A DNA stretch of 34,385 bases, taken from NCBI GenBank assembly GCA_012522335.1, contig JAAYKP010000107.1, forward strand, positions 1-34,385, in the 5' to 3' direction. Made by a program: the position numbers and the translations under genes. Each line of letters opens with the position of its first letter. Positions within the stretch are counted from its first letter, which is position 1. Source of the stretch: Bacillota bacterium (GTDB taxonomy: Bacteria > Bacillota > Dethiobacteria > Dethiobacterales > Dethiobacteraceae). This document shows positions 6,618 through 25,796 of this stretch, piece by piece. The notes beneath the pieces are model-generated. The model saw only the letters and a program-made list of their open reading frames with translations. It ran no database searches and had not been told where the DNA came from.

Positions 6618-6709
6618 CAATAGGCCCGCCTTTTTTTCCAAAGCTTTCTCGAATTTCTGCGTTTACATGAGATTTCTGTCACTTTGGCTTAATGTGCACA
6701 CTGATAATA

Positions 6710-6737
6710 TTGTCATTCCGTGCGCAGATATTATACA
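6710..6737 (+). promoter_or_regulatory. Candidate promoter of histidine kinase gene
   Basis: TTGTCA (6710-6715) and TATACA (6732-6737) with a 16-bp spacer, about 100 bases upstream of the kinase start. Reasonable match to a housekeeping sigma promoter, by eye only. Confidence 0.4.
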
Positions 6738-6843
6738 TTTTACACATTTAAGCAGGATTTTTTCCTCCTCCACGCGAAAGCTTGTGAAAAAAATATTTTC
6801 TTTTTTCTGCAATCATCAAAATAGTGAATGGAGTTGGAGACTT

Positions 6844-8346
6844 ATGATTGAGGAAAAAAATTTAAGAAAAGCAGCGGGCAGCTCTTTCTCTGCGCTGAAA
6901 AACCGGTTAAAAGAACTGCAGTTGACATATTCCCCGGGATTACGCAGTAAATTCGTTCTGCTTTGGCTCTTCTTAGTGCTTAGCACAGGCCTCTGGTTTA
7001 CCTGGCAGTGTGAGCGGATTACACACACGGTAATGCTCCGCGATTTACAGCACCGTGGTCTCTGCATTGCCCGTAATGTAGCCTCACGCGGCGCTGATCC
7101 GTTTCTCAGCAGTAATCATCAGGAACTCCAGCAGATTATCAACGATACCGTAGCTAACAATGAAGATCTTTTATATTTATTTATCCAGGACCCGCAAGGC
7201 AGGGTGATTGTCAGCTCCCAACCTGAACAGCAACTGCCGGCGGATTTGCTCCTGCGGCCCCTCACACCGGGAGATAATTATCAGACAATAAACCATGCAA
7301 ACACAGAAATTATCCATGATTTTGCCGTTCCTATCTCCAGTGATAATGCCGCTACCATACGACTGGGTATTGCTGAAACAAATCTGCGGCACGCCCTGTC
7401 GCGGATCAGAAGAGCCCTCATTTCGACCCTGTTGGCTGCCCTCATTGTCGGCGGCCTGATCACTGCCTTTTTCACAAACAAATTACTAGGACCATTAAGG
7501 CGGCTTACTGCAGCTGCACACACCATCAGGGAGGGTGATTTTAGTGCCCGGGTGCCCATACAGTCTTTTGATGAGATGGGAGAGCTGGCAGCGGCATTCA
7601 ATTTGATGGCGGAAAAGTTAAGCACTTATAAGCTTGAGAATATAGAAAATCGTGCAGAATTAGATCGTATTGAAAAACTGCGTGTGCAATTGGTACAGCA
7701 CCTCATCACGGCTCAAGAAGAAGAACGCAAAAGAATCGCCCGGGAACTGCATGATGAAACATCTCAATCCTTAACAGCTTTAAAACTAGGGTTAAAGGCC
7801 ATGGAGCAGACAACTTCCCCGGCCGGGATTCAAGAATTAAGTCGCGAATTACGTCAGATGCTAGGTGCCACCCTTGATGAAATAACCGCCATTTCGCGCA
7901 ACTTACGTCCCAGCGTTCTGGATGACATGGGACTGCAGGCAGCATTGGCGCGTCTTATAGAAGAATCCTCACATCGTATAGGCAAAAAAATAATTTATAA
8001 ACATGAAGGACTAGTGGATAAACGTTTTCCGGCCTATATCGAAACAGCAGTCTACCGGATTGTACAGGAAGCAGTCACCAACAGCCTTAAGTATGCCCAG
8101 GCAGAAAATATCTTTGTCAGTGTTTCCTATCAACAGAATCAGCTAAAAGCCATCGTTGCTGATGACGGCATTGGCTTTGATCCGGCTGCTGTTTTAGACG
8201 GCAATATACCACAAAAAGGGTTCGGCTTATTTGGCATGCAGGAGCGAGCCACCTTAATTGACGGCACACTGCAAATTGATGCGGCCACAGGTCAAGGTAC
8301 CACAATTACCGTCACTGTACCAAATGTGCAGGAAGCCGGAGCATAA
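6844..8346 (+). CDS. NarL-family sensor histidine kinase
   Basis: 500-residue membrane kinase. Transmembrane helix at about residues 36-54, an external sensor region of roughly 130 residues (about 55-188; possibly Cache-like), second helix at about 190-212, HAMP domain (RLTAAAHTIREGDFSARVP), then a HisKA_3 dimerisation domain with phospho-acceptor His303 in ARELHDETSQSL, and an ATPase domain with N-box EAVTNSLKYA, DDGIGFD and GFGLFGMQER. Such kinases pair with LuxR/NarL-type response regulators. No regulator is adjacent; the only one in the window is at 16092-16757, on the far side of the formate dehydrogenase operon. ATG 6844 is chosen (TTGGAG upstream); the frame stays open to 6667 but the extra 59 residues have no binding site and are not kinase-like. 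The stop codon sits in a hairpin loop. Confidence 0.93.
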   Translation: MIEEKNLRKAAGSSFSALKNRLKELQLTYSPGLRSKFVLLWLFLVLSTGLWFTWQCERITHTVMLRDLQHRGLCIARNVASRGADPFLSSNHQELQQIINDTVANNEDLLYLFIQDPQGRVIVSSQPEQQLPADLLLRPLTPGDNYQTINHANTEIIHDFAVPISSDNAATIRLGIAETNLRHALSRIRRALISTLLAALIVGGLITAFFTNKLLGPLRRLTAAAHTIREGDFSARVPIQSFDEMGELAAAFNLMAEKLSTYKLENIENRAELDRIEKLRVQLVQHLITAQEEERKRIARELHDETSQSLTALKLGLKAMEQTTSPAGIQELSRELRQMLGATLDEITAISRNLRPSVLDDMGLQAALARLIEESSHRIGKKIIYKHEGLVDKRFPAYIETAVYRIVQEAVTNSLKYAQAENIFVSVSYQQNQLKAIVADDGIGFDPAAVLDGNIPQKGFGLFGMQERATLIDGTLQIDAATGQGTTITVTVPNVQEAGA

Positions 8347-8361
8347 GCTCCGGCTTCCTGC
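8328..8361 (+). terminator. Hairpin enclosing the kinase stop codon
   Basis: GCAGGAAGCCGGAG (8328-8341) pairs with CTCCGGCTTCCTGC (8348-8361); a further C-G pair leaves ATAA as the loop, so the UAA stop lies inside it. It separates the kinase gene from the convergent fdhB. The T tract is missing on the plus strand and modest on the minus strand. Confidence 0.6.
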
Positions 8362-8405: not shown

Positions 8406-9191
8406 CTACTGCGCTTCTTTTTCGCCGGGTAAAACTTTTTTTGTTTCGCGTTTGTTTTCCCAGATTAACAACCCAATTAAAGCAGCAACAAAGATTCGCA
8501 GGGGGCGAAAAATGGCATCCCAAATGTAAGCGGAAATCGGTACTTTCGGCTCAGCCGGCAGTCCATACTTTTCAGGATCATCTTTCAAGACATACATGAC
8601 TGCCGTGCCGTTTAATTCTTCCAAGCCATAGATTCGCGCCTTACTGTATCCCTGAACCATCAGTTCATCAACTCGGCGGTGTGCTAAATCTACCATCTCA
8701 ACCCGTGTGCCAAATTGGATAGCACCTGTGGGACAGGCTTTGGCACAGGCCGGTATTAAACCAATGGCCTGCCGGTCACTGCAGAGAGTACATTTTTGAG
8801 AAACATTTTCTTTTTGGTTAAAGGCCATTACTTTAAATGTGCAGCTGGCTACACAATAGTTACAACCGATACATTTTTTCGGGTCTGTGACTACAGCACC
8901 GGTTTCTGTATGACTGATGGCACCTGCCGGGCACACTTTTTCACAGGCTGCATCAGTACAGTGCATACAGCCTTTTTTGGCGAAATACCAGCTTATTGCA
9001 CCCGTTGATTCATCTTCATGCTCACGAAAAACCACACGCGTCCAGGAGTTTGCCGTAAAACGTACCGGGTTTTCATAATAGCCGGTAAAACTTGTTTCTT
9101 CCGCCGGCAGTCTGTTCCACTGCTTACATGCTACCTGACAGGCGCGACAACCAATACATTTAGAGGTATCAATTAGTATAGAGTTTAACAT
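8406..9191 (-). CDS. fdhB: Formate dehydrogenase iron-sulfur subunit
   Basis: 261-residue polyferredoxin subunit of the FdnH/HybA type that takes electrons from FdhA. Four cysteine groups for 4Fe-4S clusters are visible: CIGCRACQVAC (residues 12-22), CMHCTDAACEKVC, CIGCNYCVASC, and the split CTLC...CAKAC group. Near the C-terminus IFVAALIGLLIW forms a single membrane anchor, followed by a charged tail. ATG 9191 follows the fdhA stop by one base, with GGTGGGG upstream, so translation is likely coupled. In E. coli the partner would be the cytochrome b subunit FdnI; no such gene is present. The RnfD membrane protein in the same operon is the natural candidate to receive its electrons (inference). 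Confidence 0.93.
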   Translation of the reverse strand: MLNSILIDTSKCIGCRACQVACKQWNRLPAEETSFTGYYENPVRFTANSWTRVVFREHEDESTGAISWYFAKKGCMHCTDAACEKVCPAGAISHTETGAVVTDPKKCIGCNYCVASCTFKVMAFNQKENVSQKCTLCSDRQAIGLIPACAKACPTGAIQFGTRVEMVDLAHRRVDELMVQGYSKARIYGLEELNGTAVMYVLKDDPEKYGLPAEPKVPISAYIWDAIFRPLRIFVAALIGLLIWENKRETKKVLPGEKEAQ

Positions 9192-9192
9192 T

Positions 9193-12192
9193 TTACCCCA
9201 CCTTCCTTATGTTACAGAGAAAGGCTTTATACTCAGGTATACTGGTATTAGCATCACCGATGGACGGTACTATGTCATTGACAATCGCGCCTTTGTTCAA
9301 GCCCATATAACCCCAGTGGAAAGGCATACCGACCATTTCACGCAGTTCGCCGTCAACCAGCAGCGGTTTAATCCGCGGTGTCACACAGGCAATGGCGGAG
9401 ATTTTCTTTTTACGATATGTGCTGATTTCTACCTGATCGCCGTTTTCGATGCCCAGTTTCTCCGCCAGTGTGGGACTGATCTCGACAAAAAGAGCTGGCA
9501 TTAATTCATTGAGCCATGGAGTGTTGCGGGTCATGATACCGGACTGCCAGTGTTCAGTCACACGGTAGGTCGACATGATATAAGGGAATTCCTGATCACC
9601 GGCCGCCGCCAAATGATCTTGATACCAGATTTTTGTTACCGGATTAAACTGCACGGTGCTGGAAAGTAGGTTGCGAATCGGACTTTCGGCCGGTTCATAG
9701 TGTTCCGGGAAAGGACCTTCAGCCATGCCGTTCGCAAAAAGGCGAGCCTGCAGTTCGGGCAGCATAATGTAAGGACCTTGTGCTGTTGCTTCCGGTGGAA
9801 CATTAGCATTGAAATCCGGTACATCATTACACTGCCAGCTTTCGCCGTCCCACCACATCAGAGGGATCTCCGGGTTCCAGGGTTTCCCCTGCGGATCTGC
9901 GGAACAACGATTGTAGATAATCCGCCGGTTTAGCGGCCAGGCAAATGCCCACTGAGCATTGGTGCCAATACCCGACTCTTCTTTGATCCGGCTTTTACAT
10001 GCGGGATGGGTGCGATTATTATAATACCCGCTGTAAATCCAGCAGCCGCAGGCGGTACTGCCGTCATCAGCAAGTTTGGTAAAGTTTTCTAGAAGCTGGC
10101 CGGTTCTGGTGTTGTAGCCGTTAATTTCCATTGCCACGGCATTGGCGTCAGCTTCCTCCCCATAATCCCAGTTCAGGTTTAATATCGGAGCGGCAAAAGG
10201 ACCGGGATTCTTTTCATATTCTGCCCTGATCGCTTTATAGAGCCGGTCAACAATCCACAGGTCAGTTTTAGCGTCTCCCAAGGGCTTTTGTGCCTGATAA
10301 CGCCACTGGATCCAGCGACCGCTATTAGAGATCGTTCCTTCCCGTTCAAAGGAGGCGGAACCGGGCAGCAGGAAGACTTCTGTATCAATTTCAGTCGGAT
10401 CTACGCCGGGTTCTTTCCAGAAAGCTGCAGTTTCGTTTTCAAAAATATCAATGGAAACCAGCCAATCTAAATTCTTGGTATATTCCCGCTTGGCCGAAGC
10501 AGACGGTCCGGTGACAGCCGGGTTATCCGCCCAGCAAATCATACCTTTAATTTCACCTTCCCCCATATATTTGTACATACCGATATGGGAGCGATCTTTA
10601 TCATCTAATTTAGGCAGATAATCAAAACAAAAATCGTTTTCCTCAACAGCGTGATCACCATACCAGGCCTTTAACATGCTGATGAGGAATTTTGGTTTGT
10701 TAGCCCAATAACTGCTGGCGGGTGTTTCTTTTTCCAGGTAGGCGGCAAGATTTTCGTGCAGTGAAGCTTTGGGCATATTTAGGTAACCGGGGATGATATG
10801 GTAGAGCATAGCCATGTCCGTTGATCCCTGCACATTAGCCTGCCCACGCTGCGCATTAACACCACCACCCGGAATACCGATATTACCAAGCAGCAGCTGC
10901 AGGCAGGCAATGGCCCGTACGTTCTGTGAGCCGTGTGTGAATTGAGTCACACCCATGGCATACAGAATATTGCCTGCTTTGCCCGCCTGCCCCGTGCTGG
11001 CATATAATTCTGCCACAGCCTGCAATTTGTCCACGGGACAGCCGGTAATCCGGCTGACTGTTTCCAGGTCATACCGCTCATAATGCTTTTTCATAAGCTG
11101 TAAAACACAGTGGGGATCAGTAGCTGTTGGATCCTTTTTGATATTCCCGTCTGCATCCAGCTGATAGCTCCAACTGCTCTTATCATAGGTTGCAGCGCGA
11201 TCTTCAGCCTCCTGTGCCCCGGAAAATAAGCCGTCTGCAAAGGAAAATTCCGGGTTAATAAGATAGGTGGCATTAGTGTAATTGAGCACATACTCTTCAT
11301 GGTAAAGTTTATTACTTAAGACATAGTTAATCAGCCCGCCCAGAAAAGCAATGTTCGTCCCGGGGCGCAGAGGCGCATATAAATCAGCAACTGCTGCAGT
11401 GCGAGTAAAGCGTGGGTCAACAACAATTAATTTGGCGTCCCTTTCAGCACGCGCCCGCTCAATCCACTTCATGGAAATGGGATGGTTTTCCGCCGGGTTA
11501 CAGCCGAAAGCTAAAAATACATCGGAATTCTTATAATCAATCCAATGGTTAGTCATGGCACCGCGACCAAATGAGTTGCCCAGACCGGCAACTGTGGAGG
11601 AGTGTCAGAGACGGGCACAATGGTCAATATTGATGATACCCAGTGATCTAATTAATTTATGGTACAAGTAGTTTTCTTCGTTAGTACAGGTAGCACTGCC
11701 CAAATGAGCAATGGCACGGGTACGGTTCACAGTGACTCCGTTTTCATCAACCCTTTCAAAAGTGGAGTCGCGTGTTTCTTTAATTCGCTGGGCAATATGT
11801 TTTAAAGCAAAATCCCAATCCACCTCTTTCCATTCAGCAGCGCGCGGTGCACGGTAGAGCACTTTTTTTATGCGCTGCGGGTGCTCAATGGCCTGCCCCT
11901 GTTGATCGTAAATATAAGCAAGATTAAAAATAGAGCTGCCTTTACTGCAGAGAGCACCTTCGTTAATAGGGTGATCCGGATCCCCTTCCGCGCCGACTAC
12001 TTTATTATTCTGCACGTAACAAATGATACCGCAGCCAACAGAACAGTATGGACAAATGGTAGTTACTTCTTTTGCATACTGTACGGGCACCGGTGCTGCT
12101 TCCACAGAATCGGCAAAACCTAAACTGGCTAAAGTAGCTGTACCAACAGCAGCACCCGTTAATTTTAGAAAACTACGTCGTGATATTTTCAT
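9193..12192 (-). CDS. fdhA: Formate dehydrogenase catalytic subunit, selenocysteine, Tat-exported
   Basis: One gene of 999 residues read through an in-frame TGA (11605-11607) as selenocysteine 196. The context HCARL-Sec-HSSTVAGLGNSF is the conserved formate dehydrogenase active site, and the frame is identical on both sides. N-terminal Tat signal SRRSFLK followed by a hydrophobic stretch and likely cleavage after VEA, so it acts outside the membrane. The 4Fe-4S ligands are Cys47, Cys50, Cys54 and Cys82. The rest is the bis-molybdopterin (or tungstopterin) guanine dinucleotide domain with the C-terminal YRVTEHWQSG and GDQVEIST segments. Length is close to E. coli FdnG. ATG 12192 follows AGGAGGTGA. 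The organism must encode SelA, SelB, SelC and SelD elsewhere. Operon partners upstream are fdhE, rnfC and rnfD. Confidence 0.96.
11575..11607 (-). promoter_or_regulatory. SECIS element of fdhA with UGA codon
   Basis: After the UGA (11607-11605) and a 12-base gap, the mRNA forms GUUGCC-GGUCUG-GGCAAC, a perfect 6-bp stem with the apical loop GGUCUG. The same GGUCU loop is the SelB contact in E. coli fdhF and fdnG. This places the readthrough signal at the standard distance for bacteria. Confidence 0.93.
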
Positions 12193-12208
12193 AATTGCTC
12201 ACCTCCTA

Positions 12209-13210
12209 CTAGCTTTTTACAGCAACGTTTGCACCGGTCGATACAGTTTGCTTAATAAGCTGTGCCTTTTCTTCCCCAAATTTTTTTCTTCTCGTTAAAC
12301 GATCAATCAGCGGTACAAATGCATTCATAATTAAAATGGCAAAGGCAACCCCCTCTGTAGGTGCCAATAAAACACGGAAAACGACAACAATAATACCTAT
12401 GCAGACGCCAAAGATAATCTGTCCCTTTTTGGTAATGGGACTGGTGACCCAGTCTGTGGCCATATAGAAAGCACCAAGCAGCAGACCACCGCTCAGCAGA
12501 TGGTAAACAGGATGCTGCCCCAACAGGGCGGTGCCGATGAAAACAGTAGCCAGCATAGAAACGGGAATATGCCAGGTAATATGCTTTTTGTAAAGCAGAT
12601 AAAGACCACCGAGAATTAAGGCCAAGGCAGATGATTCTGCGATACCTCCTCCCTGGGTCGCAATAAAAAATGTTCCCATGTTGGGCAAGGGCAGCCCCAT
12701 CTGCAGCATGGTTAGCGGTGTAGCCTGCGTTACCGTATCAATGCCGGGAAAACTGACGCGCCAATAGAAAAATTCGTTATTCAGATACACTAACCAAGGG
12801 GCAAAGAGTATTACAGACACTCTGCCAAACAGCGCAGGGTTAAAACGATTCCAACCTAACCCACCTAGATACTCCTTGGCAAAACCTACCGCAATAAAAG
12901 TTGCCGCAGATGCTAACCACCAAGGCGTAGCTGCCGAAAAGCTTAATGCAACCAGAACACCGGTTAAAATAGCACTGCCGTCATGCAGTTGAGGTTTTTT
13001 ACCCATCGCCCGCCGGAACAATACCTCGGTAAACATAGCCGTCAGAACACAAACCATGATTAAAAAAGGTACATTGAATTTAAAAAAGTAACACGCCACT
13101 AAAGTGACCGGCAGCAGGGCAATGGTTACATCCCTCATAGCCGTGGACACCTGATCACCGGCATGTAAATGTGGTGATGAAGCAGCCTGCAAATTTAAAT
13201 CTGTTCCCAT
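12209..13210 (-). CDS. rnfD: RnfD-type flavin membrane subunit
   Basis: 333-residue protein of the RnfD/NqrB family with about ten hydrophobic segments. Family marks: HDGSAILTGVLVALSF, GWNRFNPALFGR, and the flavinylation-type motif DTVTQAT with Thr164 as the probable FMN attachment residue, then ATDWVTSPIT. In Rnf and Nqr complexes this subunit carries flavins inside the membrane and is tied to ion movement. ATG 13210 follows GGAGGG. It lies between rnfC (18 bases) and fdhA (16 bases). RnfG, RnfE, RnfA and RnfB are absent, and no ApbE flavin transferase is in the window. I infer it replaces the cytochrome b subunit of a classical formate dehydrogenase. Confidence 0.93.
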   Translation of the reverse strand: MGTDLNLQAASSPHLHAGDQVSTAMRDVTIALLPVTLVACYFFKFNVPFLIMVCVLTAMFTEVLFRRAMGKKPQLHDGSAILTGVLVALSFSAATPWWLASAATFIAVGFAKEYLGGLGWNRFNPALFGRVSVILFAPWLVYLNNEFFYWRVSFPGIDTVTQATPLTMLQMGLPLPNMGTFFIATQGGGIAESSALALILGGLYLLYKKHITWHIPVSMLATVFIGTALLGQHPVYHLLSGGLLLGAFYMATDWVTSPITKKGQIIFGVCIGIIVVVFRVLLAPTEGVAFAILIMNAFVPLIDRLTRRKKFGEEKAQLIKQTVSTGANVAVKS

Positions 13211-13228
13211 TGTGACCCTCCTTTCCCT

Positions 13229-14515
13229 TTACGCCCTTTTTACATGTCGAACAAAATCAACTATAGGCCGATGTGAAGGACAGACATAAGCACAGATACC
13301 ACACTCAAAACAATCGAGGGCACCCCACTCTTTGGCTAAATTATAGCGACCCAATTCACCATACATGCCGATATAGTTGGGATAAAGCCCCATGGGACAA
13401 TGATCAACACATTTGCCGCAGCGCACACAAGCTAAATATTCCGGAGAGCTGCGAACAAGATCTGACGTTAAAGCCAATACGCCTCCGCAGCCTTTAACCA
13501 GGGGAGCATCCAAAGTAGTTTGAGCAAAACCGGTCATGGGGCCGCCCATGACAATTCTCACCACGTCACTTCTTATTCCCCCCGTGCAATTGAGGAGATG
13601 GGAAAGAGGTGTGCCGATAACAACACGATAATTACCCGGTTGCACGGCCCCAGGACCCGTTAACGTCACAATTCTTTCTGTTAAGGGGCGCCGGTATTTT
13701 ACTGCATCCCAAACTGCTTTCACAGTCGCTACATTTTGCACCACAACATTAACTTCTGCCGGCAGCTTGCCAAGGGGAACTACCCTTCCGGTTGCTGCAT
13801 AAATAAGCTGTTTTTCTGCCCCCTGCGGATATTTTACTTTCAGGGGAACCACTTCCATGCCGGGTTCTTTAGCCAGCTTTTTTTTGATAACCTCAATGGC
13901 ATCCATTTTGTTTTCCTCGATACCAAAGATAACTTTAGCACCGCCTAAAACCTTGCTGAGAATACGAGCACCGGCAATCATCTCCTCGGCTTCTTCCAGC
14001 ATTAAACGGTGATCGCAAGTTAAAAACGGTTCACATTCACAGCCATTGAGAATTAAGTAATCAATTGTAGTGGGTGGATTAACCTTTACGTGGGTGGGGA
14101 AACCTGCACCACCCATACCCACAATCCCGGCTTCTCTGATTCGGCGTCTGATTTCCTCCGTGGACAATTGTGAAACATCATCCGCGGTATAACTGGCAGG
14201 TTCCTGTTCCGGATCCACATCAATGACTACACAATCTTCCAGCTGTCCGGTCATGGTAATCCGGCTGCCAATTTCACGGACTGTGCCACTTAATCCCGTA
14301 TGGACAGGTGCGGAAATAGCTGCATCGCTATCTCCTATCTTCTGACCTGCCTTAACCCTCTCACCAACTGAAACCAGCCGCCTGTTAGGTGCACCAATAT
14401 GCTGTTTTAAGGGAATAATTAATTCAGTTGGCTGTGGCAGTTCCTGTACAGGCAGATGTTCAGTTTGTTCTTTGTAGTGAGGAATATCCATCCCTCTCTC
14501 AAAAGTTTTTGCCAC
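13229..14515 (-). CDS. rnfC: RnfC-type NADH/ferredoxin-side subunit
   Basis: 428-residue RnfC, complete by comparison with clostridial RnfC. N-terminal IIPLKQHIGAPNRRLV and KIGDSDAAISAPVH block, an NuoF-like FMN/NAD site with GMGGAGFPTHVK (about residues 133-144) and GCECEPFLTCDHR, an SLBB region, then two 4Fe-4S motifs CVRCGKCVDHC (363-373) and CFECGICAYVC (402-412). It normally sits on the cytoplasmic face and exchanges electrons with NAD(H). GTG 14515 is chosen since GGGAGGTGA precedes it; a TTG nine codons earlier overlaps the fdhE stop but has no binding site. All cofactor residues are kept, so this is not a decayed remnant. Confidence 0.93.
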   Translation of the reverse strand: MAKTFERGMDIPHYKEQTEHLPVQELPQPTELIIPLKQHIGAPNRRLVSVGERVKAGQKIGDSDAAISAPVHTGLSGTVREIGSRITMTGQLEDCVVIDVDPEQEPASYTADDVSQLSTEEIRRRIREAGIVGMGGAGFPTHVKVNPPTTIDYLILNGCECEPFLTCDHRLMLEEAEEMIAGARILSKVLGGAKVIFGIEENKMDAIEVIKKKLAKEPGMEVVPLKVKYPQGAEKQLIYAATGRVVPLGKLPAEVNVVVQNVATVKAVWDAVKYRRPLTERIVTLTGPGAVQPGNYRVVIGTPLSHLLNCTGGIRSDVVRIVMGGPMTGFAQTTLDAPLVKGCGGVLALTSDLVRSSPEYLACVRCGKCVDHCPMGLYPNYIGMYGELGRYNLAKEWGALDCFECGICAYVCPSHRPIVDFVRHVKRA

Positions 14516-14538
14516 GCTTTTCACCTCCCTAAGTTGAT

Positions 14539-15441
14539 TCAATTCAGTACAGCTTGCTTACCGGCTTCACCATAGCCCTCACGAGCGGCCAGCTGATCGA
14601 GATAATAAGTCACTAAGTTTTCCAAATCGGGAATGATCTCCCTTGCCAACTCTTTTAAAACTATTGTTTTCAGATAGCCCTTACATTGATGGCAAACATA
14701 AACACGACGGTGCGTCTGTTCCGGAATATAGAAAAAGCTTAAATGCTGTTGGTCGGTTGTACCGCAGGAGGTACAAAAAATCCGCTGCACATCCCACTGT
14801 GTGTGACAAAGTCCACATTCCAATACACGGCTGCCGTCTTCAGCCCTCAACATGGCCAGCATCGGCTTTTCACCACACACAGGGCAGATTCCCTCTTTCC
14901 AGTTTTCAAAAGTAAAACTTGCTGCCGTTTGCCGGGCAAAATTGACGAAGTACATTTGCAGGGCAGCACGAATGACCTGCGCCATTACGGCAAGGTGCTG
15001 CTCCGTCAGTTGTGCGGCAGCAGGATTTTTGCGGAGGTAAGCCTGTATCATTGGCAGTGACAAATTGCCGGGCTGACAAAAAATATCCTCCAGATTTTGA
15101 GCAGTAAGTGTACTTTGCAGAAGCATTAGCAGCTCGTCAAACTGATGTTCAGTACCTGCCAATAGTTCCTTATGGGCTGCTGTCAGAATGGCCTCAGCCT
15201 GTTTTAGAGTTTCACTGAGCGGTATCGGCAGTACAACTTTAGACAGCAGCGGTTCCTTTTTACGTAAGCCTTCAGTTAAGGCCTGGGGTACAATATCTAC
15301 GGCAGGCTGCTTGCTAAAACTCCGTTGTCGTGCGTACAATTTTTTATAGAACAACAAAAGTGGTTGCAGGTTTTTATTTTCTTGTAAATAGAACTGCAGT
15401 TCACGCTGTACTTCTGCAGCTGTTGGAGGATACTTGACCAC
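14539..15441 (-). CDS. fdhE: Formate dehydrogenase accessory protein FdhE
   Basis: 300-residue FdhE homologue. The C-terminal half holds four CxxC pairs in two rubredoxin-like metal folds: CPVCGEKP, CGLCHTQW, CTSCGTTD and CHQCKGYL. The N-terminal half is helical and poorly conserved. FdhE is needed for maturation of Tat-exported formate dehydrogenases in E. coli, where it contacts the catalytic subunit before export. GTG 15441 with GGAGC upstream. First gene of the five-gene operon ending at fdhB, which confirms that the rnfC-rnfD-fdhAB genes are a formate dehydrogenase unit and not a chance neighbourhood. A 235-bp leader precedes it. Confidence 0.9.
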   Translation of the reverse strand: MVKYPPTAAEVQRELQFYLQENKNLQPLLLFYKKLYARQRSFSKQPAVDIVPQALTEGLRKKEPLLSKVVLPIPLSETLKQAEAILTAAHKELLAGTEHQFDELLMLLQSTLTAQNLEDIFCQPGNLSLPMIQAYLRKNPAAAQLTEQHLAVMAQVIRAALQMYFVNFARQTAASFTFENWKEGICPVCGEKPMLAMLRAEDGSRVLECGLCHTQWDVQRIFCTSCGTTDQQHLSFFYIPEQTHRRVYVCHQCKGYLKTIVLKELAREIIPDLENLVTYYLDQLAAREGYGEAGKQAVLN

Positions 15442-15660: not shown

Positions 15661-15679
15661 AAAAGAGCCTTGAAGGCTC
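15661..15679 (-). terminator. Terminator of LysR-type gene
   Basis: GAGCC (15665-15669) and GGCTC (15675-15679) form a short stem with loop TTCAA on the minus strand, followed by TTTTTATTTT. The stem overlaps the stop codon of the regulator gene at 15678-15680. It separates that gene from the formate dehydrogenase operon. Confidence 0.75.
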
Positions 15680-15983
15680 ATGGAGTCTGTTTAAACTTTT
15701 TAAGTTCTAAATGCAGATCTTGTCGTAAATGCATGATTTTTCTACAATACTCATAGACGACCAAACCTGCTGGTGTAGGGGTTACCCCTTTGTTACTGCG
15801 TTTTAACAAACGCTGTTGGCAGTATTGTTCCAAATCACGAACCTGCATACTGACTGCGGGCTGCGTAATGTGACAAAGGCGAGCAGCTTCCGAGATACTT
15901 CCGGTTTGAATTACTGTGCAAAATGCTTCGATCTGTGACATTTTCAAGCGACATCCATTTTTTTCTTGTAAATTGAGGGACAT
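15678..15983 (-). CDS. LysR-type DNA-binding domain, stand-alone
   Basis: 101 residues consisting of only the winged helix-turn-helix of LysR regulators: QIEAFCTVIQTGSISEAARL, ITQPAVSMQVRDLE recognition helix, RLLKRSNKGVTPTPAG wing, and the dimerisation helix. The roughly 200-residue effector domain is missing, and a terminator follows the stop directly, so this looks like the complete gene and not a broken one. ATG 15983 is chosen with AAAGGAG eight bases before it. It sits between the response regulator and the formate dehydrogenase operon on the same strand; control of that operon is plausible. ModE of E. coli also has a LysR-like N-terminal domain, but the sequence here is of the ordinary LysR kind. 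Confidence 0.85.
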   Translation of the reverse strand: MSLNLQEKNGCRLKMSQIEAFCTVIQTGSISEAARLCHITQPAVSMQVRDLEQYCQQRLLKRSNKGVTPTPAGLVVYEYCRKIMHLRQDLHLELKKFKQTP

Positions 15984-16091
15984 CTGCATCTCTCCTTTTA
16001 AATAGATCATAACTACCGGCCGCAAATAAACCGCTGAACTGCCATCCCATGTCGGGAATTACCTGGCAGGAAAGTGCCTGGCATTCCTCCC

Positions 16092-16757
16092 TTATCCGTG
16101 TAAATCAAGCAAATTGTGTTCTAAGGCGTATTCAACAAACTCTGAACGGTGAACAATATCTAATTTTTCTTTAATTCTTGCTTTATGGCTTTCTACAGTT
16201 TTCACACTAACATGGATTTTTTCCGCTATCTGTTTGTCAGTAAAGCCGCGGGCAACCAAGATAAGAATCTCTTTTTGCCGTTTACTAAGCATATCTTTTG
16301 CTTTGCTTTTTTGTGTTTTTTCTGCCGGCTGGAGATAACGCTGCCATAATTTTTTTGTCATGGAAGAGTCTACAACCATTTCTCCACGCATAATTGCTCG
16401 GATGGCCAGGATCAGCTCGTCATCTGCTGCTTTTTTTAATAAATAGCCATTTGCGCCCTCTAAAAGTACTTTTTGTATATAATCTTCTTCTTCGTGAATA
16501 GTTAAAACCAGAATCTTGACTTGGGGTGAAAGCTGTTTTATTTTTTTGATAAATTCAATACCACTGCAGTCCGGTAGTGTTAAATCCAATATAATTAAAT
16601 CAGGCTTTTTCTCCTGGACAATCGTTATTCCTTCTCTGACTGAACCTGCTTCGCCGATAACTTCCATATCACCCTGCGCCTTAATGACTAGGTGTAAACC
16701 CTTTCGCACAATGGGATGATCATCAATAATCATTATTTTGATTGTGTCATCAGACAA
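16092..16757 (-). CDS. NarL/LuxR-type response regulator
   Basis: 221 residues: receiver domain (1-120) with IIDDHP acidic pocket, phosphorylation site Asp58 in LIILDLTLPD, switch Thr in LVLTIHEE and Lys in GYLLKKAAD; then a LuxR-type helix-turn-helix (about 155-215) with LSKRQKEILILVARGFTDKQ and VSVKTVESHKARI. Start is read as TTG 16757 because AAAGGGGTGA precedes it; a GTG three codons upstream is part of that site. It is divergent from the tetraheme cytochrome gene and has no kinase beside it. The NarL-type kinase at 6844-8346 is the only partner in the window. Regulation of the cytochrome or of the formate dehydrogenase operon is inferred from position. Confidence 0.93.
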   Translation of the reverse strand: MSDDTIKIMIIDDHPIVRKGLHLVIKAQGDMEVIGEAGSVREGITIVQEKKPDLIILDLTLPDCSGIEFIKKIKQLSPQVKILVLTIHEEEDYIQKVLLEGANGYLLKKAADDELILAIRAIMRGEMVVDSSMTKKLWQRYLQPAEKTQKSKAKDMLSKRQKEILILVARGFTDKQIAEKIHVSVKTVESHKARIKEKLDIVHRSEFVEYALEHNLLDLHG

Positions 16758-16850
16758 ATATTTCACCCCTTTGCTTTAAAATAGACGCAAGTTATTTTTT
16801 TCACATGTTTAGCTATAGATTCTATTTCAAATTGGCAATATCCTGCTAAG

Positions 16851-17039: not shown

Positions 17040-17417
17040 ATGAACAGAAAAATTTTTCTTGTAATTGCTTTAGTTGTCATGGCAGCTTTCGCCTGGTATG
17101 TCCGAGGGACTTTGCTTGTTCCCAAACAAACGGTAGCCGGTCCGGAACTTGTCAGTCACCGCGTTGATCAATATGATGAAGATTGTGTTGACTGTCATGG
17201 TAAAGTTAGCGAATGGCATAAAGAGCATTTTGCAACCTTTAGCAGTGACAACTGCATGGATTGTCATGGTGGATCCCCGGGGACTCCGCACCCCACAGAT
17301 GGTACATATGCAGAGTGTTTAACCTGTCACGAACCTATTGTGGCTACACATGATGAAATGTTCCCCTGGGAAAACACAACTTATGACGATTGTCTAGGTT
17401 GTCATAAACCTGAATAA
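17040..17417 (+). CDS. Membrane-anchored tetraheme cytochrome c
   Basis: 125 residues with an N-terminal hydrophobic helix (IFLVIALVVMAAFAWYV) after MNRK, which can act as an uncleaved anchor or signal. The rest is exported and has four CxxCH haem sites at Cys49, Cys72, Cys93 and Cys118. Five further histidines (40, 60, 63, 84, 104) are enough for bis-histidine ligation of all four. The heme spacing resembles small NapC/NrfH- or c3-like carriers, but no close family can be named. GGAGGACAT precedes ATG 17040 and a strong terminator follows, so it is a one-gene unit. It needs a cytochrome c maturation system not seen here. A role in moving electrons from the menaquinone pool or formate dehydrogenase to an outside acceptor is inference. 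Confidence 0.92.
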   Translation: MNRKIFLVIALVVMAAFAWYVRGTLLVPKQTVAGPELVSHRVDQYDEDCVDCHGKVSEWHKEHFATFSSDNCMDCHGGSPGTPHPTDGTYAECLTCHEPIVATHDEMFPWENTTYDDCLGCHKPE

Positions 17418-24414: not shown

Positions 24415-25470
24415 CTAAAGGGCACCGGAAATACCGGCATCTGCAAAACTGGCCATTTCGTGCATAATTTTTAAGGCAGCGTCAACCATGGTCATGGCCA
24501 GGGCTGCACCGGTACCTTCACCAAGGCGCATATTCATGCGTAAAAAAGGTGTCAGGTTCAGTAAGCTTAATGCTGCCAGATGGCCTGGTTCTTCCGATAA
24601 ATGTGAAGCCAACATATATTCAGCAGCATGAGGATGCAGTCTGGAAGCAATAACGGCGGAAACAGTGGAAATAAAGCCGTCTATCAGCACAGGTACGCGG
24701 TTGGCGGCTGCTGCCAGCATCACGCCGGCCATACCTGCAATTTCATACCCTCCCAGTTTAGCTAAAACATCCAACGCGTCATCGGGATCAGGCTTGTTTA
24801 CTGCAATGGCTTGTTCTATAGCTTTAATTTTTCTCTGCAATCCTTCATCATTTAAACCGGTACCACGACCGCAAACCTCCGCCGCCGAACAGCCTTTATA
24901 AAAGGCGGTAATGGCCGCACTGGGGGTAGTATTACCAATACCCATTTCACCGGTGCCAAACAGACCTGTACCGGCAGCAATGTATGATTCAGCCACTTCA
25001 ATGCCTACTTCTAAAGCTGCTACGGCCTGCTCCCGTGTCATGGCCGGACCTATGGCCATATTAGCTGTACCGTAAGCTACTTTGCGGTTTAGCAGAATAG
25101 GATGTTCCGGCAGATCAGCGGCTACACCGATATCAACAACAATTAGTTCTGCACCGGCATGGCGGGCTAAAACGTTCATAGCTGCACCGCCGTTAAGGAA
25201 ATTTAATACCATCTGCGGTGTAACCTCCTGCGGATAAGCAGAGACACCTTCAGCAACTACCCCATGGTCACCGGCCATTAAAATTGAAGTCTTCTTAGGC
25301 AGTGGTGGTTTTATTTCGCCTGTAATGCCGGCCATTTTTCTGGCGATATCCTCCAAGACACCTAAACTGCCAATCGGTTTAGTCAGGCCGTCAGAATATC
25401 TTTGTGCCTCCTCCTCCTTAGCTTTGTCCGTCGGTCTAATCCGGTCCAAAGTGCTTTGTAATTTTTCCAT
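24415..25470 (-). CDS. cobT: Nicotinate-nucleotide:dimethylbenzimidazole phosphoribosyltransferase
   Basis: 351-residue CobT that makes alpha-ribazole phosphate for the lower ligand of cobalamin. Family blocks: DGLTKPIGSLGVLEDIA, ILMAGDHGVVAEGVSAYP, NGGAAMNVLARHAGAELIVVD, GTGLFGTGEMGIGNTTP, GRGTGLND and RLGEGTGAALAM with the catalytic Glu318 (Glu317 in Salmonella). GGAGGAGATAAG precedes ATG 25470. It is a single gene behind a cobalamin riboswitch and its own promoter, so expression should fall when B12 is plentiful. Other corrinoid genes are not in the window. Corrinoid use fits an anaerobe with methyl-transfer pathways. Confidence 0.96.
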   Translation of the reverse strand: MEKLQSTLDRIRPTDKAKEEEAQRYSDGLTKPIGSLGVLEDIARKMAGITGEIKPPLPKKTSILMAGDHGVVAEGVSAYPQEVTPQMVLNFLNGGAAMNVLARHAGAELIVVDIGVAADLPEHPILLNRKVAYGTANMAIGPAMTREQAVAALEVGIEVAESYIAAGTGLFGTGEMGIGNTTPSAAITAFYKGCSAAEVCGRGTGLNDEGLQRKIKAIEQAIAVNKPDPDDALDVLAKLGGYEIAGMAGVMLAAAANRVPVLIDGFISTVSAVIASRLHPHAAEYMLASHLSEEPGHLAALSLLNLTPFLRMNMRLGEGTGAALAMTMVDAALKIMHEMASFADAGISGAL

Positions 25471-25597: not shown

Positions 25598-25619
25598 ACC
25601 ATCATCCAAGTGTCGCACC

Positions 25620-25777
25620 GGCTTTGTGGCAGGTCTCCTGACTTCCGGATCTTTGTCCCCGCCACCTTCCCATCACAAGGACAGTGGCCTTTGGCGGTTC
25701 CTCCCCGGTTACAGTGGTGGGACCGTTCGGGACTTACACCCGATTCCCTATTCTCCGCTGCTGCGGCACCACAAACC
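25620..25777 (-). ncRNA. Cobalamin riboswitch aptamer
   Basis: Minus-strand RNA with the hallmarks of the B12 class: closing stem GGUUUGUGG with CCACAAAGCC, GAAUCGGGUGUAAGUCCCG-type core, CCCACCACUGUAACC, GCCACUG, and the B12 box AGUCAGGAGACCUGCC. It ends about 23 bases before a terminator hairpin, so it probably acts by transcription attenuation on cobT. Confidence 0.96.
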
Positions 25778-25796
25778 AACTATTAAACTTATTTTC

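Follow-up and report, generated by a model that had tools for sequence, protein, structure and literature searches.

RnfC and RnfD encoded with an exported formate dehydrogenase: a candidate exchangeable transmembrane electron wire to NAD(H) in anaerobic bacteria

The window analysed here is the whole stretch of 34,385 nucleotides of contig JAAYKP010000107.1 (assembly GCA_012522335.1), from a Bacillota bacterium of the Dethiobacteraceae. Five minus-strand genes occupy positions 15441-8406 in the order fdhE-rnfC-rnfD-fdhA-fdhB (Table 1), and both the coordinates and the spacing of 1-23 bases given in the initial annotation were reproduced, the gaps from fdhE to fdhB being 23, 18, 16, and 1 bases. 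These gaps presuppose that rnfC begins with the GTG at 14515, which is the most likely start because GGGAGGTG ahead of it makes a good ribosome-binding site; an alternative, longer rnfC ORF starts with TTG at 14542. According to the genes and the family profiles of the interval 8406-15441, the operon encodes no RnfG, RnfE, RnfA, or RnfB and no gamma subunit, and the absence of rnfGEAB and of a cytochrome b gamma gene from the operon, reported in that same annotation, therefore holds. FdhE passes the gathering score of the Pfam family FdhE_central (PF24859), while its match to TIGR01562 (74 bits, 1.2e-20) lies under the cut-off of 188. Where fdhB and the histidine kinase gene converge there is a 34-base inverted repeat, a possible bidirectional terminator that is missed by the terminator scan because the scan requires a T run.

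Table 1. Features of the window mentioned in the text, with strand and basis of identification.
Feature	Position	Strand	Basis
NarX/MctS-like histidine kinase gene	6667-8346	+	
Inverted repeat of 34 bases	8328..8361	.	seen directly in the sequence
fdhB, 261-aa subunit with four 4Fe-4S clusters, anchored in the membrane at its C-terminus	8406..9191	-	1kqf_B match
FdhB membrane helix (residues ~228-246), charged tail after it	8454..8510	-	translation
fdhA, 999-aa selenoprotein, Mo/W formate dehydrogenase catalytic subunit	9193..12192	-	TIGR01553; translation with TGA=U
In-frame TGA, Sec196 of FdhA, motif DHCARL-U-HSS	11605..11607	-	translation with TGA=U
rnfD, 333 aa, membrane flavoprotein of the NqrB/RnfD family	12209..13210	-	TIGR01946; PF03116 4.6e-97
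RnfD Thr164 codon, expected covalent FMN site (A. woodii RnfD Thr156)	12719..12721	-	alignment mapping
RnfD periplasmic segment, NPA to FMN threonine	12722..12832	-	longer than in classical RnfD
rnfC, GTG start	13229..14515	-	TIGR01945, PF01512, PF13375
RnfC cluster cysteines C372, 375, 378, 382, 411, 414, 417, 421 (437-aa numbering)	13280..13429	-	conserved, also in classical RnfC
fdhE, 300-aa accessory protein of formate dehydrogenase, GTG start	14539..15441	-	PF24859 above gathering score
LysR-type DNA-binding domain protein gene	15678-16025	-	
NarL/MctR-like response regulator gene	16092-16766	-	
Small multihaem c-type cytochrome gene	17040-17417	+	
CobT-like phosphoribosyltransferase gene	24415-25470		
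Cobalamin riboswitch	25611-25788	-	RF00174

FdhA scores 1189 bits against the formate dehydrogenase-N alpha model TIGR01553 (cut-off 814), contains selenocysteine, and carries the Tat signal MKISRRSFLKLTGA. Most of its relatives show the same split ORF pattern as the fdhA of the window, and one (L125) has cysteine instead. FdhB scores 229 bits against the beta-subunit model TIGR01582, which is under the equivalog cut-off of 335, and aligns nearly end to end with E. coli FdnH (1kqf_B, E=2.8e-70), the match reaching into the membrane anchor. It has no signal peptide of its own; its relatives contain 16-17 cysteines and likewise a hydrophobic C-terminal helix at about residue 226. From these features, FdhA and FdhB are predicted to lie outside the membrane, where they would arrive by Tat export. 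The pair resembles FdnGHI, FdoGHI, and the external formate dehydrogenases of S. wolfei and T. phaeum in its Tat-exported selenocysteine FdhA and its four-cluster, membrane-anchored FdhB. It differs from FdnGHI in that the di-haem cytochrome b gamma subunit (PF01292) is absent and in that the inner partner proposed below is NAD(H) instead of quinone.

RnfC passes the model TIGR01945 (500 bits, cut-off 246), matches the RnfC of 7zc6 in phmmer with E=4e-115, and comprises an N-terminal barrel-sandwich domain, a Complex1_51K FMN/NADH domain, an SLBB-like domain, and two 4Fe-4S clusters. RnfD passes TIGR01946 (278 bits, cut-off 207) and matches 7zc6_D with E=3.7e-70. The NqrA and NqrB equivalog models fail their cut-offs on these proteins, whereas the RnfC- and RnfD-type models pass, so that the pair is of the Rnf and not of the Na+-NQR kind. 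The residues T164, N124, and D253 of RnfD align with T156, N123, and D249 of the A. woodii protein, in which the change N123A/D249A at the riboflavin site abolishes activity (PMC11889175). All three are conserved in the RnfD of related loci with the same arrangement (hereafter the module), the threonine across the whole set (n=33), and the module RnfC proteins conserve the FMN motif and the eight cluster cysteines. The flavin and cluster motifs are thus intact, as initially annotated, and they are conserved in the module as well, apart from the flavin motif of one fused RnfC (L127, below). Compared with the Rnf complexes of A. woodii, C. tetanomorphum, and A. vinelandii (RnfCDGEAB), the cofactor residues of RnfC and RnfD are the same and the same order of FMN, riboflavin, clusters, FMN, and NAD is expected, but the six subunits are not encoded together and electrons would enter through an outside molybdoenzyme rather than from ferredoxin via RnfB-RnfAE-RnfG.

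The module RnfD also differs from the classical one in its outer linker. The segment from NPA to the FMN threonine has a median of 36 residues in the module and 27 in classical RnfD (p=2e-7, uncorrected for relatedness; an indirect indication, inflated by shared ancestry), and 58-62 residues in a hydrogenase-linked set from Actinobacteria. In the C. tetanomorphum complex (7zc6) this linker covers the FMN, and RnfG docks there (PMC9588780); in the window it is a candidate docking surface for FdhB. Four further positions of RnfD, 113, 278, 282, and 285, are fixed or nearly fixed in the module as Glu, Phe, Leu, and Thr, where classical proteins mostly have Gln, Ile, Gly, and Pro, a possible functional signature.

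The arrangement is not confined to this genome. RnfD matches in 60 relatives fall into two classes, with ~46-88% and ~32-49% identity to the RnfD of the window. Members of the first class stand beside RnfC and a four-cluster Fe-S subunit without rnfGEAB, and the second class includes classical Rnf. Among all loci examined, 39 have the window-type RnfD, and at 33 of them a CISM four-cluster Fe-S subunit is adjacent; five of the six remaining loci lie on or close to the end of a contig, and the sole real exception (L062) has an RnfG-like protein. The partner is a formate dehydrogenase at 27 of the 39 loci, a PhsAB-type molybdoenzyme at five, and a [NiFe] hydrogenase with an FdhB-like protein at one. 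At least four gene orders occur: fdhE-rnfC-rnfD-fdhA-fdhB, fdhA-fdhE-rnfC-rnfD-fdhB, fdhA-fdhB-rnfC-rnfD, and fdhA-fdhB-rnfD-rnfC, and at some loci fdhB is the only formate dehydrogenase gene adjacent to rnfCD. The relatives belong to several families of the class, with further families within a draw of 398 genomes of the phylum, where the gene context was checked for relatives down to E=1e-72. The co-location of RnfCD with formate dehydrogenase in many genera is well above chance. Chance adjacency was discounted because the module recurs with differing gene orders, and an assembly chimera because independent assemblies carry the same operon. The combination of rnfCD with fdhAB and without rnfGEAB, for which the initial annotation had suggested a genome search, recurs in many genera. 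What had been regarded as a single odd operon belongs to a broader family of RnfCD pairs, whose other partners are PhsAB-type enzymes and hydrogenases. The named relatives are Bacillota MAGs, presumably from anaerobic digesters and soda-lake sediments.

Some of the less common partners deserve description. In three Actinobacteria MAGs (L084, L091, and L092), which come on top of the 39 loci, genes for the small and large subunits of a Tat-exported [NiFe] hydrogenase are followed by rnfC-rnfD, with hyp-like genes downstream and, in L084 and L091, a small membrane protein between the hydrogenase subunits and rnfC-rnfD. At L048 (G046:C80, 4658-10816), the order is rnfC-rnfD, an FdhB-like protein with its own Tat signal, and the [NiFe] hydrogenase small and large subunits; its RnfD is nested inside the formate dehydrogenase clade of RnfD. 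L127, in a single-contig genome (G152:C1, 7992-11015, minus strand), encodes a fusion of 1007 aa between an [FeFe] hydrogenase and a C-terminal RnfC part in which the flavin motif GMGGAGFP is lost and the cluster cysteines are kept, with rnfD, phsB, and phsA adjoining; it is apparently an H2-linked form of the RnfCD wire proposed below. L062 (G011:C53, 5357-10828) has an RnfG-like FMN_bind protein with rnfC-rnfD, then UbiA, and some way beyond it a gene for cytochrome b561, and could possibly represent an RnfGCD variant tied to quinone.

The other known membrane subunits for such outside enzymes are largely missing from the carriers. Profile searches of the contigs of the window's assembly (2.0 Mb, 99% complete, 169 contigs) found no cytochrome b561/FdnI-type protein (PF01292) and no NrfD-type subunit (PF03916), and a cytochrome b subunit encoded elsewhere, one possible objection to the initial reading, is therefore not at hand in this genome. 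Among the 31 module genomes, NrfD is found in none and PF01292 is absent from 28, namely that of the window and 27 of the 30 others, which makes the standard membrane partners unavailable in most carriers. These results bear on the idea that the operon encodes two independent enzymes, with FdhAB passing its electrons to some other acceptor such as a multihaem cytochrome and RnfCD doing a different job. Shared transcription by itself is no proof of a complex, and a small cytochrome c is encoded near the operon (Table 1). Nevertheless, the recurrence of the module despite changes of gene order and of partner enzyme, the finding that most carriers have neither cytochrome b nor NrfD, and the mirrored divergence of FdhB and RnfD make independent functions very unlikely. 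As for this divergence, the distances among FdhB proteins correlate with those among RnfD at r=0.72 and among RnfC at r=0.43, weak evidence because linked genes share their history.

The genome of the window also has a classical Rnf. A second, classical RnfC is encoded on another contig (G000:C105) and followed by the start of RnfD at the contig end, and the end of contig C3 encodes the C-terminus of RnfA and RnfB, which indicates a classical rnf operon cut by an assembly gap. Both this operon and an apbE gene, present in one copy, had been proposed as points to check. Beyond the window, RnfA/E-type matches were obtained in all 30 other module genomes (in G010 as no more than a fragment scoring under the cut-off where a contig ends), and no module genome wholly without Rnf subunits was found among these 30, so that sharing of RnfG in trans would be possible. 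The presence of a classical locus in the window's genome and of RnfA/E-type proteins in all module genomes tested could mean that FdhAB feeds a complete Rnf, in which the module RnfCD assembles with RnfGEAB from elsewhere and formate drives ion pumping. We regard this as quite unlikely, since the classical loci encode their own RnfC and RnfD, all gene orders seen tie the module to FdhB and not to rnfGEAB, and the module proteins form a separate clade whose periplasmic linker is altered where RnfG would dock. In the FastTree phylogeny of RnfC, the module forms one clade with no classical members (support 0.997, 32 taxa), a value that falls to 0.884 with the Actinobacteria pair and L125 added, and the RnfD tree agrees more weakly (0.69, 41 taxa). 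The module RnfC stays in this clade even though the module genomes also hold classical Rnf.

In the solved Rnf complexes, electrons pass from ferredoxin via RnfB and RnfA/E to RnfG on the outside (PMC11889175, PMC12174285), and from this outside donor to the RnfD FMN, riboflavin, the RnfC clusters, FMN, and NAD (PMC11889175, PMC12174285, PMC9588780). We consider it fairly likely that the module RnfCD wires an outside enzyme through the membrane to NAD(H) and can be exchanged between such enzymes, and that FdhA-FdhB-RnfD-RnfC is here an electrogenic and reversible formate:NAD enzyme. Its four subunits would form a membrane complex in which FdhB would stand in for RnfG and deliver electrons to the FMN covalently attached at the outer face of RnfD, from where they would reach a riboflavin near the inner side, the two 4Fe-4S clusters of RnfC, the RnfC FMN, and finally NAD+. 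The path could run either way. Of the U-shaped electron path of Rnf, the limb that leads back inside would thereby be kept, with the limb RnfB-RnfAE-RnfG swapped for an outside dehydrogenase, and the passage of two electrons across the membrane would be electrogenic with neither an ion channel nor Rnf-type pumping. A route from FdhB through the RnfD flavins and RnfC to NAD had been part of the initial annotation and now finds partial support in the solved Rnf complexes, with which it agrees, and in the comparative evidence. For the putative FdhB-RnfD contact, AlphaFold2 gave a pTM of 0.46 with a poorly modelled FdhB for the natural in-frame FdhB-RnfC-RnfD of L050 (stops as glycine, 32 rows). 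For the RnfD-FdhB of L043 (49 rows) the pTM was 0.70, with both domains good and structural matches to the expected proteins, 9eri RnfD at Z 37 and 1kqf FdnH at Z 28, figures that concern the folds and not the interface.

The role of ion channel has been put forward for RnfD/NqrB itself (Vitt 2022; Hau 2023; review PMC12174285), and the Asn and Asp of the postulated site are retained in the module. An RnfD that also moves Na+ or H+ during electron transfer, which would turn the enzyme into a pump, is nevertheless highly improbable, as these conserved residues are also riboflavin ligands and recent A. woodii data (2025) assign Na+ translocation to RnfA/E and electron transfer only to RnfD (PMC11889175). 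The initial annotation had allowed for coupling to an ion gradient; pumping by RnfD without the other subunits finds no support, the Na+ movement of A. woodii being a matter of RnfA/E. Conversely, since the module has RnfC and RnfD without the remainder, it would offer a natural test of a matter now in dispute, whether ions pass Rnf and NQR via RnfD/NqrB or via RnfA/E.

A quinone acceptor would be possible, as the genome encodes a homologue of UbiA along with a methyltransferase of the MenG type. FdhAB-RnfCD would then be a formate:menaquinone enzyme whose RnfD reduces quinone like its quinone-reducing homologue NqrB, with RnfC in a structural role; the analogous formate dehydrogenase of Thermacetogenium phaeum, linked to quinone via its gamma subunit, adjoins quinone synthesis genes (PMC6895022). 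This reading is unlikely. NqrA has no redox cofactor, whereas RnfC retains its FMN motif and its eight cluster cysteines, and the sole module RnfC seen without the FMN motif is the hydrogenase fusion, which is not a case of RnfC freed for quinone. In addition, a complete route to menaquinone was not traced.

For the direction of the formate:NAD enzyme, potentials were estimated from textbook midpoints with 50 mM CO2/bicarbonate, a NAD/NADH ratio of 10, and an assumed membrane potential of ~150 mV. The calculated potential of the formate couple is ~-318 mV at 10 uM and ~-380 mV at 1 mM formate, that of NAD ~-289 mV, and at ~150 mV of membrane potential the reduction of outside CO2 by NADH is calculated to be favoured up to tens of mM formate. 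From these estimates the usual direction is likely to be formate release, and the operon probably runs as an NADH-to-formate exhaust: NADH would be oxidised inside and CO2 reduced outside, with the membrane potential driving the release of formate to a partner. Formate uptake would be possible at high formate or low membrane potential. Separate cytoplasmic formate dehydrogenases are read from the sequences of this genome, one accompanied by NuoE/NuoF-like subunits, the other encoded between genes for MetF-like and CODH-like proteins. If the proposal is true, syntrophic and acetogenic bacteria would gain a quinone-free way from NADH to external formate, paid in membrane potential. This step, in which electrons flow in reverse towards a formate or hydrogen partner, is generally credited to cytochrome/menaquinone enzymes.

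The pairing of RnfCD with other outside enzymes in many anaerobes suggests an electron wire that has been overlooked and can be exchanged between enzymes. We lean, if only slightly, towards the view that outside oxidoreductases have, besides membrane modules of the haem-b (FdnI/NarI) and NrfD kinds, a third general one in RnfCD. It would be a flavin wire running from formate dehydrogenases, [NiFe] hydrogenases, and enzymes of the PhsAB type on the outside directly to NAD(H) or, in a single natural fusion, to an inside [FeFe] hydrogenase, with neither quinone nor the ion-pumping half of Rnf. Parts of this arrangement have counterparts elsewhere. The RnfC2-MetVF enzyme of A. woodii has neither RnfD nor an outside enzyme. 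In it, RnfC2 is an RnfC acting as an NADH module outside Rnf (cited in PMC6895022). In Nqr/Rnf-like complexes with flavinylated outside proteins, too, an outside redox protein is served by a membrane protein resembling NqrB/RnfD (PMC10979944), but these complexes are paired with an NqrC/RnfG-like flavoprotein, and the FMN threonine of their RnfD is absent.

In the open-access literature, we found no biochemistry and no family description of RnfCD with formate dehydrogenase; the one earlier account found is of unFirm_1, in which rnfC and rnfD lie beside a formate dehydrogenase gene (IMG 2635450710-12) and were termed a 'truncated Rnf', and whose RnfC and formate dehydrogenase were detected in the metaproteome of an ammonia-tolerant biogas reactor (PMC5080403). 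We liken this locus to ours, rnfC-rnfD adjoining a formate dehydrogenase gene in both, by its published description; the report concerns one organism and gives neither a mechanism nor a wider family. The remark in the initial annotation that no complex of this make-up has been characterised stands, although gene adjacency and metaproteome detection were already published for unFirm_1 (PMC5080403). RnfC, RnfD, two RnfG, and a Tat formate dehydrogenase have also been described in 'Ca. Syntrophonatronum', with no link drawn between them (PMC6295475). Such loci are easily taken for a broken Rnf, as in unFirm_1, and if the proposed wire is real, many uncultured anaerobes may have had their energy metabolism mis-assigned.

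Several other genes surround the operon in the window. The NarX/MctS-like histidine kinase and the NarL/MctR-like response regulator are encoded one on each side of it, and because the operons of L038 and L039 are flanked by genes of like size and strand, this two-component pair may be the operon's regulator. The LysR-type protein of 115 aa consists of a DNA-binding domain without a sensor domain, and its top match is the selenium metabolism-associated LysR model. The small multihaem cytochrome has its membrane anchor at the N-terminus, and the cobalamin riboswitch lies upstream of the CobT-like gene.
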